Shown here: one piece after another, positions 13,978 to 54,435 of the stretch
Layout: each line of letters opens with the position of its first letter
Position numbering within the stretch: position 1 is the first letter of the stretch
NCBI RefSeq assembly: GCF_006334915.2
Contig: NZ_VDMA02000004.1
Span: 124,001-188,000 of the forward strand
Direction of reading: 5' to 3'
Length of the DNA: 64,000 nt
DNA from: Microbispora catharanthi
GTDB lineage: Bacteria > Actinomycetota > Actinomycetes > Streptosporangiales > Streptosporangiaceae
Program-made: the position numbers and the translations under genes
The notes under the pieces: model-generated
Told to the model about the DNA's origin: nothing
The model's input: the letters and a program-made list of their open reading frames with translations, nothing else
Database searches by the model: none

Positions 13978-16059
13978 TCAGAGGGGCGGAACGGCGTCCT
14001 TGGCCCGCTGGAGGGCGAGCTCGGGCCACCACGTGCCGCCGTAGGGCGGGACGACGCCGTACACCGGGTCAGTGGAGCCGCCCTCGCCGCGGTCGCACCG
14101 GTCGTCGGACATGCCGGCCGGCCGCACCCACAGGTACGCGTCCACGAGCGCGCTGCCGGTGCGGGTGGTCGGCCGTACGCCGGCGCCGCGTCCCGGCGGG
14201 TTGCACCAGTCCTGGGGGTCCTTGTACCTGCCCTCGGGCGGGGTCCACCCGCCCTTGCCGTTCCTGCTCGTGTCGATCACGAAGTGGGGGAGCCCGGCCG
14301 TCCCCGCGTCCGTGCCGACGTCGGCGCAGGCACGGCCGCGGCCCTGCGACTTGGTCTTCACGCAGGCGGCGAGGCGGGTGCCGTACGCGACGAGCTGGCC
14401 GGTCTTCTGGAATCCGGAGACGTTGAGGTAGAAGCCGTCCGCGTCGGTGATCCCGGCGTCGACCAGCCGAGTCGCGGCGACCTCCGGCGTCGGCCAGCCG
14501 TCGAGGCTGCCGTCGAGGTAGACGGCGGTGTTCGGCAGCGCGCCGAGCCGTTTGGCCGCCGCGGCGAGCATGCGCAGCCTGGCGCGCTGGTCGGCGGCGT
14601 CGCCCAGCGAGCAGTCCGGCGAGCCCGGCAACTCCGCGAGGCTGTTCGGCTCCAGCACGAACACCGCCTTGCGGTCGCCCACGGCCGACGCGAGCGCGTC
14701 GATCCAGGCGAGGTAGTCGGCCGAGTCCGCCGCGCCGCCGTCCTCGTTGCACGCGCGCAGCGGGATGTGGTCGGTGACGAAGACCGCGACCGCGTCCTGC
14801 CGCGCCGCGGCCTCCAGCGCGGCGCTCGCCGCACGGGCGGCCTCGACCGCGCTCGTCTGGCCGAGCCACACGGCCCTGGGCACCGCGGCCAGCTTCCGCA
14901 TCATCGCGGCGTCCCCGGCCCGCCCCGCCGCCTGCCAGACGTCCGCCTGGTGGGCCTCGTCGCCGGTCGGGCTCGCATAGAGCCGTGCGGCCTGCCCGCG
15001 CAGCGGGTTGCCGCCGGAGGCGCTCGCGGTGGTGCGCGCCGGCGGTTTCCCGGACGGCTCGGGGTCGCCGGACGACGCCACCTGGACGGCGACGACCACG
15101 CCCGCCGTGACCACGATGGCGGTGGCGGCGGCGGCGATCCCCACGCCCAGGCGCGACCGGCGGCCCGCCCCGCCCGACACGGCCGTGGGCGCTCCTCGCA
15201 CGCTCGGAGGCGCGGGCTCGGGCTCGGGCGCGGGCTCGATGGGCTCGTGGCCGGTCAGCATCTCGACCAGTCCCCGCGCGGTGGGACGCCGGGCCGGGTC
15301 CTTCGCCAGCGCCAGGTCGACGATCGACCGCAGCCGGGGGTCGAGGCCCGAGATGTGCGGGGGCTCGTGCAGCACCCGATAGAGGATGCTCGGGATCGAC
15401 CCGCCGCTGAACGGCGCCCGGCCCGAGGCGGTGTACGCCACCAGCGCGCCCCAGGCGAAGATGTCGGACGCCGGGGTCAGCCGGTCGCCCTTCGCCTGCT
15501 CGGGCGACATGAAGGACGGCGTTCCCGCGACGATGCCGCTGATGTCCGCGGTGGTGTCGGTGACCTGGGCGATGCCGAAATCGATGACCTTGGGACCGAC
15601 CGGCGACAGCAGCACGTTCGACGGCTTGAGGTCGCGGTGGATCACCCCCGCGCTGTGGATCGCCTGCAGGGCCACGGCCACGTTGACCGCCACCGCCTCC
15701 AGGCTCGACCCCGACAGCGGCCCGCGCTCCCGCACGACCTCCTGCAGGGTGGGCCCCGGGACGTACTCGGTGGCGAGGTAGGCGACGTCGCCGTCCAGCC
15801 CCGCGCCGAGGACGGCGGCGGTGCAGAAGCGGGCGACCCGCTGCGCGGCGGCGACCTCGCGCTGGAACCTGCGCCGGAAGTCGGGGTCGGCCGCCCACTG
15901 CGGGTGGATCACCTTGACCGCCGCGTCGCGGCCGTCGGCGTCCCGGCCGAGGTAGACCGTGCCCATGCCGCCCTGGCCGAGCCTGCCGACGATGCGGAAC
16001 GGTCCGATCCGCCGGGGATCGCCGTCCCGCGGTCCGTCGCCCTCCGCACCGCTCGTCAT
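13978..16059 (-). CDS. Transmembrane Ser/Thr kinase with extracellular GH6-like domain
   Basis: A 693-residue receptor-type kinase. Residues ~18-275 are a complete Hanks kinase: LGQGGMGTVYLG, AAVKVI lysine, HRDLKPSNVLL and VIDFGIAQ. A Pro/Glu linker and one transmembrane helix (~305-329) follow. Residues ~345-693 match glycoside hydrolase family 6 (cellulase): LYASP, YLAWIDALASAVGD, AVYLDGSLDGWPTPEV, GFYLNVSGFQ, HFVIDTSRNGKG, DWCNPPGRGAG and LWVRPAGMSDD. The general acid of the EPD signature is Asn (LEPNSLAEL, N472), and the first signature reads PLRAC, not P-x-RDC (A436); the C-terminal Asp (D652) is kept. A non-catalytic sugar sensor driving the kinase is the likely reading. The ATG has GGGGA 4 nt upstream. 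The next gene on the same strand is the deacetylase. Confidence 0.9.
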   Translation of the reverse strand: MTSGAEGDGPRDGDPRRIGPFRIVGRLGQGGMGTVYLGRDADGRDAAVKVIHPQWAADPDFRRRFQREVAAAQRVARFCTAAVLGAGLDGDVAYLATEYVPGPTLQEVVRERGPLSGSSLEAVAVNVAVALQAIHSAGVIHRDLKPSNVLLSPVGPKVIDFGIAQVTDTTADISGIVAGTPSFMSPEQAKGDRLTPASDIFAWGALVAYTASGRAPFSGGSIPSILYRVLHEPPHISGLDPRLRSIVDLALAKDPARRPTARGLVEMLTGHEPIEPAPEPEPAPPSVRGAPTAVSGGAGRRSRLGVGIAAAATAIVVTAGVVVAVQVASSGDPEPSGKPPARTTASASGGNPLRGQAARLYASPTGDEAHQADVWQAAGRAGDAAMMRKLAAVPRAVWLGQTSAVEAARAASAALEAAARQDAVAVFVTDHIPLRACNEDGGAADSADYLAWIDALASAVGDRKAVFVLEPNSLAELPGSPDCSLGDAADQRARLRMLAAAAKRLGALPNTAVYLDGSLDGWPTPEVAATRLVDAGITDADGFYLNVSGFQKTGQLVAYGTRLAACVKTKSQGRGRACADVGTDAGTAGLPHFVIDTSRNGKGGWTPPEGRYKDPQDWCNPPGRGAGVRPTTRTGSALVDAYLWVRPAGMSDDRCDRGEGGSTDPVYGVVPPYGGTWWPELALQRAKDAVPPL

Positions 16060-51690: not shown

Positions 51691-54435
51691 TCAGGACAGG
51701 TCCAGGCCGGCGAGCTGGGCGCGGCTGGCCACGTTGAGCTTCGGAAACGCGCGATAGAGGTGATAGCTGACGGTCTTCGGGCTGAGGAACAACTGCGCGC
51801 CGATCTCCCGGTTGGTCAGGCCCTTGGCGGCCAGCCGCACGATCTGCAGTTCCTGCGGGGACAGCGCCGACAGCGCTTCCGTACGCGCGGCGGGGGAGCT
51901 GGTGTCTCCGGTGGCGCGCAGCTCGGTGCGGGCGCGCTCGGCCCACGGGCGGGCGCCCAGCCGCTCGAAGGTCTCCCACGCGGCCCGCAGGTGCGGCCGG
52001 GCACTGCCCTTGTCGCGCTCCCTGCGCAGGCGCTCCCCGAAGGCGAGCCTGGTGCGGGCCGCCTCCCAGGGACGGCCGCTGCCGGCGTGGAGCCGTACGG
52101 CGGCGCCGAATTCCTCGTGCGCCCGCTCCCAGTCGGTTTCGAGCAGGGCGCGGCAGCGGTGCAGGACGGCCAGCGCCCAGTCCTGCCCCGAGGCCGTCGC
52201 CCACTCCTCGAACCGGCGCAGCGGCTCGCGCGCGGGCAGCCCGAGCCGTACGGCCGCCTCGATCTGGTCGGGGGCGAAGTAGACGGCCTGGATCTGGTGG
52301 CGCACCGGGCCGGTCATGGCGGTGCCGAGCCGGTCGAGAGCCTCGGCGAACCGGCCCTGGCCGAGGTCGAGCAGGGCCAGTGCCCACTCGGCCCACGCCA
52401 GGCCGTTGACGATGTGGTTGGCGTCGAAGCGGTCGCGCGAGCGGGCGGCCAGCTCGGCGCATCGGTCCGCCTCTCCCCGTACGGCCGCCAGCCACGCCAG
52501 CGTGCCCTCCAGGTAGCCCGCCCGGTTGCGCTGCCCCGTGTCCGAGGTGAGCCGCAGGCCCTCGACCGCGGTGGCCTCGGCGTCCCTGAACCTGCCCAGA
52601 TACAGCTCGGCGGCGGCGAGCGTGACGTGGACCAGGGGGAGTTTGCCGATGTCGCCGGCGGCCCGGCACTCCGCGGCCATGGCGGCCGAGATGTCGTGCC
52701 CGGTCCTGAAGTCGCCGACGAGCGGGGCGACGAAGGCCGCGTTGATCCGGAACGTGTGCGCGCCGGAGGCGATCCGGCCGCCCCTGGCGACCATGTCGCG
52801 CATGATGGGGAGTCCCTGCGCCGGTCCCTGCCGCAGCAGCACGGCCGCGCCGGTCACCGCCTGGACGGCCGGGTCGAGGCCGTCCTCCGGACGGAGGCCG
52901 AGCTTGTGCAGGCGTTCGGCCGCCTCGGCGACCCTGGCCGGGTCGCTGAGCTGCCAGGCGTTGCGTGCGGCGTCGGTCAGCATGAGCCCGGCCGCGATCC
53001 GGTCCTGCCGCGCCTGCTCGTCGGAGTCCGGCCCGCCGGGGCCCTCCGCGTCCGCCGTCGCGAGCGCCGTCAGCTCTTCCGCGCCCGTCATGAGCAGGTC
53101 GTGGGCCAGGTGAGGGGCGCCCTCGTCGAACGCGATCCTGGCGCGCAGGTCGCACAGCCGGGCGCGGGAACGGGGGTCGGTGACCAGCGCGGCGGCGCGC
53201 TCGACCAGCTCCTTGGCCCGGCCGGCCTGGCCCGCGTCGGCGGCGGCGACGGCGGCCTCGGTCAGCCGTCCCGCCTTGAGCGCGTGGTCCTCGGTGAGCT
53301 CGGCGGCCCGTTCGAGCGCGGCGCAGGCCCCGGCGTTGCCGTCGCGCTCCCGGGCGCGCCGTGCGGCCTGCTCCAGCGCCCGCGCCGCCGTCTCGTCGGG
53401 GCCGCTGGCGGCGGCCGCCAGGTGCCAGGCCCGCCGGTCCGGCTGATGCTCGAGCAGCCGCGCCAGGATCGCGTGGATCTCCAGCCGCAGATCGTAGGTG
53501 CCGTGCCGGAAGGCCGCCGCGCGCATGAGGGGGTGGGTGAAGGCCACCCGGCCGCCGTCGATCCTGACCAGGCCGGACTTCTCGGCCACGCCCAGCGCCG
53601 CGGGCGAGATCCCCAGCTCCCGGCCCGCCCGTACGATCACGTCCGGGTCGCCGCCGTCGGTCAGCGCGGTGACCAGCAGCGCCTTCTGGGCGTCCGGGGG
53701 CAGTTCGGCGATGCGGGCCTCGTACGCCCGCTGGATGCGGGCGGGCAGCGGCAGCGGGCTCCGGTCGTAGGCGGGCAGGTCCGTACGCGGGAGTTCGAGC
53801 AGGGCGAGCGGGTTGCCGCAGCTCTCCTCGATGACGCGGTCGCGCGTGCCGGGGGCGAGCCCGGGGGCCGCGTGGGCGAGCAGCGTGGCGGCGCTGCCCT
53901 CGTCGATGCCGGACAGCCGGTGCTCCGGCAGGCCCGAGGGGTCGAAGCCGTCGCGCGCGGCGAAGATCATGACGATGCCCTCGGCGTGCAGCCGGTGGGC
54001 CGCGAACCGCAGCGCCCGCGCCGACTCCTGGTCGAGCCACTGCGCGTCGTCGATCAGGCACAGCAGCGGCCCGCCCTCGGCCAGCTCGGCCAGCAGCGAC
54101 AGCACGGCGAGGCCCACCAGGAGCCGGTTGGTCACCGGGCCCAGGCCGAAGGCGCCGCGCAGGGCGGCCGCCTGAGGCTCGGGCAGCGTGTCCAGCCGGT
54201 CGAGCCCGTGCCCGAGCAGCAGGTGGAGCGAGGCGAACGGGATCTCCGCCTCGGTCTCGACGCCGACGCCGCGCAGCACGCCCATGTCCTGGGCGCGCTC
54301 CCCTGCGTACGCCAGCAGAGACGTCTTGCCGATGCCCGGATCGCCCCCGACCACGAGCACGCCGGAACGTCCGGCACGCGCCCGGTCGAGCAAGCCGTCG
54401 ATCACCGCTTGATCGGTCGCACGCCCCCACAGCAC
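51691..54435 (-). CDS. Large LuxR-family AAA regulator (LAL type)
   Basis: A 914-residue regulator. Residues ~1-250 are an ATPase: Walker A in VVGGDPGIGKTSLLAYAGER, Walker B LLCLIDDAQWLD. The middle ~550 residues are TPR-like helical repeats (ARERDGNAGACAALERAAEL and similar). The last ~65 form the LuxR helix-turn-helix (LSPQELQIVRLAAKGLTNRE, then LFLSPKTVSYHLYRAFPKL). LAL proteins activate transcription in response to ligand and ATP. It is divergent from the ABC transporter, 61 nt apart, with an inverted repeat between them, so the transporter is the probable target. Confidence 0.94.
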   Translation of the reverse strand: MLWGRATDQAVIDGLLDRARAGRSGVLVVGGDPGIGKTSLLAYAGERAQDMGVLRGVGVETEAEIPFASLHLLLGHGLDRLDTLPEPQAAALRGAFGLGPVTNRLLVGLAVLSLLAELAEGGPLLCLIDDAQWLDQESARALRFAAHRLHAEGIVMIFAARDGFDPSGLPEHRLSGIDEGSAATLLAHAAPGLAPGTRDRVIEESCGNPLALLELPRTDLPAYDRSPLPLPARIQRAYEARIAELPPDAQKALLVTALTDGGDPDVIVRAGRELGISPAALGVAEKSGLVRIDGGRVAFTHPLMRAAAFRHGTYDLRLEIHAILARLLEHQPDRRAWHLAAAASGPDETAARALEQAARRARERDGNAGACAALERAAELTEDHALKAGRLTEAAVAAADAGQAGRAKELVERAAALVTDPRSRARLCDLRARIAFDEGAPHLAHDLLMTGAEELTALATADAEGPGGPDSDEQARQDRIAAGLMLTDAARNAWQLSDPARVAEAAERLHKLGLRPEDGLDPAVQAVTGAAVLLRQGPAQGLPIMRDMVARGGRIASGAHTFRINAAFVAPLVGDFRTGHDISAAMAAECRAAGDIGKLPLVHVTLAAAELYLGRFRDAEATAVEGLRLTSDTGQRNRAGYLEGTLAWLAAVRGEADRCAELAARSRDRFDANHIVNGLAWAEWALALLDLGQGRFAEALDRLGTAMTGPVRHQIQAVYFAPDQIEAAVRLGLPAREPLRRFEEWATASGQDWALAVLHRCRALLETDWERAHEEFGAAVRLHAGSGRPWEAARTRLAFGERLRRERDKGSARPHLRAAWETFERLGARPWAERARTELRATGDTSSPAARTEALSALSPQELQIVRLAAKGLTNREIGAQLFLSPKTVSYHLYRAFPKLNVASRAQLAGLDLS

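Follow-up and report, generated by a model that had tools for sequence, protein, structure and literature searches.

In the window analysed here, the whole stretch of 64,000 nucleotides from a contig of the soil actinomycete Microbispora catharanthi, one gene joins a Ser/Thr kinase to a domain of the GH6 cellulase type on the outer side of the membrane, which raises the question of whether this domain still cuts a polysaccharide or has become the sensor of the kinase, and, in the latter case, what it senses. For most transmembrane Ser/Thr kinases of bacteria, no ligand is known. Their stimuli are named as an outstanding question in a passage of PMC6069109.

Layout and catalytic site of the window protein

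The features of the gene are as follows.

13978..16059, minus strand: kinase/pseudo-GH6 receptor gene, 693 aa (open frame; Pkinase and Glyco_hydro_6 above cut-off)
15262..15993, minus strand: cytoplasmic Ser/Thr kinase domain, residues 23-266, HRDLKPSN and DFG intact (Pfam)
15085..15141, minus strand: lone transmembrane helix, residues ~307-325 (hydropathy)
14086..14922, minus strand: extracytoplasmic GH6-like domain, residues 380-658 (Pfam; PDB sequence and fold matches)
14749..14772, minus strand: degenerate GH6 signature 1, residues 430-437, D430 for Tyr169 and A436 for Asp175 (alignment)
14644..14652, minus strand: degenerate GH6 signature 2, E470-P471-N472, N472 for the catalytic acid Asp221 (alignment)
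14104..14124, minus strand: residues 646-652, R646 for Lys395, M650 for Glu399 and D652 as the kept Asp401 (alignment)

The frame begins with an ATG at 16059 and ends with a stop at 13978-13980. The Pkinase match scores 133.8 bits (Pfam cut-off 31.7), and the best PDB sequence matches of the kinase are PknB/PknA. The hydrophobic helix near residues 307-325 has a Kyte-Doolittle mean of 2.35, and the outer part belongs to the GH6 fold family, with a Glyco_hydro_6 (PF01341) match of 180.9 bits (cut-off 27, E 7e-53). Its PDB sequence matches are Mycobacterium tuberculosis Cel6 (1UP0/1UOZ), a compost GH6 and Thermobifida fusca E-2 (1TML), and the closest solved folds are likewise GH6, according to a fold search with an AlphaFold model that was built from 10 sequences and is poor (mean pLDDT 53.9). 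The complete kinase, single membrane helix and GH6 outer domain given in a preliminary description of the sequence are hence borne out by Pfam and hydropathy. A Pkinase domain with HRD and DFG at the N-terminus, one helix and a C-terminal outer domain constitute the layout of PknB-type transmembrane kinases, whose outer domain consists of PASTA repeats or a propeller; in the window protein, by contrast, a Pfam scan at E <= 0.001 detected no PASTA repeats, and a pseudo-GH6 domain stands in their place.

Residue numbers of the catalytic site are those of the Trichoderma reesei GH6 and were placed via motif alignment, on which rest both their pairing with the motifs of the window protein and the roles that we assume for Asp263, His266 and Asn305. 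As set out in a part of PMC6091422, Asp221 is the experimentally confirmed acid and Asp175 the proposed base, Tyr169 aids ring puckering, Lys395, Glu399 and Asp401 touch the sugar at -1/-2, and Trp135 (the -2 subsite position), Trp269 and Trp367 hold the sugar ring. In the window protein, signature 1 reads V-T-D430-H-I-P-L-R-A436-C and signature 2 reads E-P-N472-S. Neither the acid (N472) nor the Asp175 and Tyr169 of an active GH6 (A436, D430) is present, and alignment with GH6 PDB sequences confirms these substitutions, which had been noted previously. Among Lys395, Glu399 and Asp401 of the -1 subsite, the protein keeps the Asp alone (R646, M650, D652), with D652 aligning to the Asp of the intact ...KRPGESDG motif. 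The changes of Lys395 and Glu399, together with that of His266 to L519, were absent from the preliminary description, and by alignment the loss of the catalytic site goes deeper than it had stated. The three subsite Trp residues are retained (W398, W522, W618).

With the GH6 enzymes T. reesei Cel6A, T. fusca Cel6A, M. tuberculosis Cel6 and Streptomyces CslZ, the ectodomain shares a common fold, the Pfam family, the aligned motifs and the invariant Asp263, Asn305 and Trp367 positions; unlike them, it is changed at the donor Asp, Lys395, Tyr169, His266 and Glu399 and is tethered to a kinase. In CslZ, replacement of the acid Asp120 by Ala was reported to abolish degradation of both CMC and peptidoglycan (PMC9040799, in part). 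The window ectodomain presumably no longer cuts. Loss of catalysis need not abolish binding, since the PDB contains, by the titles of its entries, GH6 mutants with bound oligosaccharide (2BOF, Tyr to Ser; 6K55, inactivated D140A).

Spread, residue losses and history in the host family

The ectodomain was searched in 341 genomes of the host family (E <= 1e-45, six candidates per genome scored, which makes the counts lower bounds), and matches were found in at least 87 genomes from 14 of the 68 genera. Together with the window, the 97 loci fetched make 98, and the search for kinase-GH6 fusions and their neighbours that had been proposed earlier was carried out on these. It yielded 84 fused genes in 68 of the 341 genomes and 12 genera (window included), as well as 17 unfused GH6 genes, one in each of 17 genomes from two other genera. 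Left out of the 84 were two contig-end pieces without a visible kinase (L257 and L260, both also lacking the donor Asp), a fragment of 206 residues in L175, and the named records L068-L075, whose genomes are already among those counted; the ectodomains of the four Microbispora loci among these records (L068-L071) are 77-92% identical. One counted gene (L173:5998-8135) has its kinase split over two frames, being either broken or affected by a sequence error. Outside the host family, a search of the class matched 49 genomes; for 17 of these, the surroundings of the GH6 matches were inspected (10 regions and nine loci, with two genomes in common), and no kinase was seen there. Likewise, none of the four other GH6 matches of the window genome has a kinase within the 3.7-4.0 kb regions examined. 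No published report of a kinase-GH6 fusion was found among the matches listed in the openly licensed literature.

Several genomes carry more than one such gene. Two further kinase-pseudo-GH6 genes stand in tandem in the window's own genome (contig C33, L164:6566-12405), with an alpha/beta-hydrolase gene and a TetR gene between them, and paired genes also occur together in L171 and L175, from the same genus.

The donor Asp is absent from 82 of the 84 fused genes, the position being occupied by N (34), S (22), G (19), A (3), Q (2), K (1) or E (1). The two genes with Asp (L180 and L212) both lack Lys395, which is retained in no fused gene (0/84). Glu399 is retained in 5/84 (lost in 79), Tyr169 in 5/84 (with Asp there in 37), His266 in 2/84 and Asp401 in 11/84, while Asp175 is retained in 57/84, with Asp or Glu at this position in 69. 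No fused gene possesses a complete catalytic site. In contrast, all seven site residues are present in each of the 17 unfused relatives, and the EPD and K..GESD motifs are likewise present in each of nine additional GH6 domains, unfused and from another family. It follows that the earlier remark on a kept D652 holds for the window protein but not across the fused genes. An Asn caused by a single-strain mutation or a sequencing error, which homologues with an intact EPD would have indicated, is ruled out by the loss in 82 genes and the seven different replacements. The pseudoenzyme status of the GH6 ectodomain, proposed earlier as a GH6 fold with a lost catalytic acid, is therefore well supported, as far as sequences can tell.

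Other parts of the protein are kept. HRD and DFG are present in 83/84 fused genes, and a hydrophobic segment lies between the kinase and GH6 in 81/84. In the cleft, the Asp263, Asn305 and Trp367 positions are invariant (84/84), and the Trp269 position has W in 69, Y in 14 and G in one (W or Y in 83/84); the Trp135 position is more variable, with W in 38, R in 32, N in 12, D in one and Q in one. Among 188 columns that are invariant in the 17 unfused relatives, 29 are lost (<10%) in the fused genes, including four of the six polar catalytic/-1 residues named in the above paper versus 25 of the 182 other columns (Fisher p 0.006, a value that treats columns as independent, stems from one evolutionary event and describes the pattern only).

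In a GH6 tree of 121 domains, three groups emerge, namely all 86 fused rows (L257 and L260 included; SH-aLRT 100), the 17 rows of intact unfused genes (99) and six unfused rows from another family (100); the tree was made by a quick method, with a long-branch warning on the outgroup, does not resolve the branching order of the three groups and leaves out three divergent GH6 domains of the window's own genome. The 17 relatives are the nearest to the window domain among unfused matches, at 45-49% identity versus 42-44% for the strongest non-family matches. In a kinase tree with 30 other kinases, the fused kinases require one change without the broken L173 row and two with it. Since the fused genes group together in both trees, fusion and catalytic loss look like one ancestral episode, and their association hence amounts to a single observation. 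The donor residue appears to have drifted after the loss, as would be expected once acid catalysis was no longer needed.

In comparisons of the window gene with five same-genus orthologues (Nei-Gojobori), dN/dS is 0.27-0.49 for the ectodomain, 0.13-0.29 for the kinase and 0.63-0.92 for the linker. By this measure, the ectodomain is under purifying selection and retained for a function, and a pseudogene reading is ruled out by the open frame and this selection. Because the residues for cutting are lost, the fold is kept and the protein is common to many genera, the ectodomain is probably a sensor rather than a digesting enzyme. The sensor-like domain on an intact kinase that had been suggested for the window gene thus gains support from a fusion shared among 12 genera.

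Candidate ligands

The reading that we favour, with a probability of roughly two in three, is that the protein is a pseudo-cellulase receptor kinase, which binds a beta-1,4-glucan-like chain without cutting it and signals through its kinase. Both the fold of the ectodomain and the subsite residues that it has retained suggest a beta-1,4-linked chain as ligand. With regard to its source, the only neighbourhood with a clear functional theme among the 98 loci is a cellulase cluster, present in five loci of two genera (L189, L191, L192, L196 and L198) and absent from the window's clade. In these, the gene order is LacI regulator, kinase, kinase-pseudo-GH6, GH48 with CBM2, and GH9 with CBM3 and CBM2 (domains by Pfam on L189 and on both L196 cellulases, the rest by sequence match), with exact palindromes of the cellulase regulator CelR at the 5' end of the frame for LacI and close to that of GH48. 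The position of these five receptor genes beside GH48 and GH9 with CelR sites points to environmental cellulose. Two other genes of the clusters may be mentioned: a second Ser/Thr kinase (L189:9061-10668), which adjoins the LacI gene and whose outer part matches no Pfam domain convincingly, and an opposite-strand gene between the two kinases (L189:8538-9005), whose family is present in all five loci, with a STAS domain by Pfam in L189 and L192.

The window genome itself has the equipment for cellulose, with one GH48 and four other GH6 matches; it also carries 14 exact CelR palindromes (none in a reversed-pattern control). Some of these palindromes precede two of the GH6 domains and the GH48 domain, at distances of up to about 710 bases. 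In all 17 unfused relatives, the GH6 domain is preceded by an exact CelR site at a distance of 104-180 bases. Near the frame start of the fused genes, no exact site was found (0/84), and the lone CelR-like site in the window, at 54290, has two mismatches and is at chance level. Direct control of the kinase-pseudo-GH6 gene by CelR consequently has no support; such a lack of induction by its own output would not contradict a receptor role, yet it does not prove one either. In a part of PMC3377646, protein kinases, which may or may not be kinase-GH6 proteins, were also reported close to CelR sites of Streptosporangium roseum and Thermobispora bispora, which its authors read as a hint that the effects of cellulose or cellobiose extend beyond cellulase genes.

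Alternatively, the domain might sense a glycan of the cell's own wall or surface, either peptidoglycan or a beta-glucan of the hyphal tip, with the adjacent deacetylase and acyltransferase taking part. PASTA kinases are held to sense wall fragments. In addition, the GH6 enzyme CslZ degraded Streptomyces coelicolor peptidoglycan (PMC9040799, in part), and a group of glycan genes lies near the kinase gene of the window. A polysaccharide deacetylase (PF01522) follows the gene in 6/98 loci, all in the window's near clade, and adjoins five of the six genes of the same-genus orthologue group (window, L165, L166, L168 and L169, not L167). However, it is not adjacent in the remaining 92 loci, with a weaker relative (88.9 bits) farther off in L181, and five loci sit in cellulase clusters instead. 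The CslA-GlxA system makes the cellulose-like tip glycan of Streptomyces, as described in a section of PMC11022532. In the genomes compared, PF09118 was found in none of four from the Microbispora group versus five of six from another family, and in all five positive genomes a GH6 match lies no more than 2 kb away (in four of them no more than 150 bases), the position expected of cslZ. If PF09118 is GlxA, which is our assumption, a CslA-GlxA-type system is probably missing in the Microbispora group, where other glycan synthases could exist. The feedback between surface glycan and its own modification that the neighbouring deacetylase had suggested is therefore unsupported, and peptidoglycan or another own glycan is a possible ligand but an unlikely one.

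The gene group mentioned above (window:2844-10140) comprises a UDP-GlcNAc 2-epimerase, a glycosyltransferase, a UDP-glucose/GDP-mannose dehydrogenase and a DUF4434 protein and resembles a surface-polysaccharide group. The DUF4434 gene family occurs in 7/98 loci.

Less probable still is a cleft that no longer binds sugar, the GH6 fold serving as a scaffold for contacts with other proteins, such as a partner in the membrane or a secreted cellulase. The Trp135 position has lost its Trp in 46/84 fused genes, with R or N in 44, so that binding may have drifted or vanished in part of the fused genes. The Glu399 and Tyr169 positions are highly variable. The ectodomain could also bind a protein or another glycan. 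The invariant Asp263, Asn305 and Trp367 and the aromatic Trp269 position (83/84) argue against a general loss of sugar binding, although structure alone could require some of them. Finally, a weak or retooled hydrolase or transferase, in which D430 or another acid replaces the donor, would fit the Asp for Tyr169 in 37 genes and the acidic residue at the Asp175 position in 69, but it is very improbable given the losses of the donor Asp (82/84), Lys395 (84/84) and Glu399 (79/84) and given that the replacing residues differ between clades, as under relaxed constraint.

Known parallels and proposed mechanism

Receptor domains derived from glycoside hydrolases are known, and the one proposed here sits on a bacterial Ser/Thr kinase. 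RsgI6 of Clostridium thermocellum is likewise a membrane regulator with such an outer sensor, a GH10 domain that is almost inactive yet has retained binding to xylan and cellulose (PMC4711584, in part); it differs in having GH10 rather than GH6, in being an anti-sigma factor instead of a kinase, and in belonging to another phylum. Tobacco CHRK1 is, like the window protein, a receptor kinase with an inactive glycoside hydrolase ectodomain, its chitinase-like domain being inactive for want of a Glu (PMC10573068, in part), but it is a plant protein with a class V chitinase-like domain, and no common descent is implied. In RsgI6 and CHRK1, the same step from enzyme to receptor has been reported that is proposed here for a bacterial kinase.

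In the pseudo-cellulase receptor model, a PknB-like Ser/Thr kinase would have been fused once to a GH6 glucanase domain, in an ancestor within the host family. The catalytic acid and the greater part of the machinery at the -1 subsite would then, or at once, have disappeared from the GH6 domain, which would have retained the fold and part of the cleft. The ectodomain would hold a beta-1,4-glucan-like chain, most likely external cellulose or a cello-oligosaccharide, and binding would alter the clustering or conformation of the kinase across the single helix and change Ser/Thr phosphorylation inside the cell. It is the loss of cutting, the ligand class, the direction of signalling and the targets of the receptor that we infer in this scheme. 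A more specific version, to which we give somewhat less than even odds, is that these receptor kinases directly read solid or dissolved cellulose with a disabled cellulase, and that the resulting phosphorylation governs how much cellulase is made or how the hyphae behave, alongside the intracellular CelR-cellobiose switch.

If this more specific version is correct, it would provide a natural ligand for a large set of orphan actinomycete kinases. The ancestry of the sensor domain gives a short list of candidate ligands, namely beta-1,4-glucans and their near kin; the single soluble domain of 349 residues suits tests of binding and cutting, and the intact unfused relatives offer a matched control.

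With regard to the output of the receptor kinase, SARP/AfsR-like neighbours may serve this role, AfsR being a known kinase target in Streptomyces. Regulators of this type, with BTAD, NB-ARC and TPR domains (Pfam on both L211 genes), flank the kinase gene at L211:3349-11082, and the same gene family is present in L205, L210, L215, L222 and L231.
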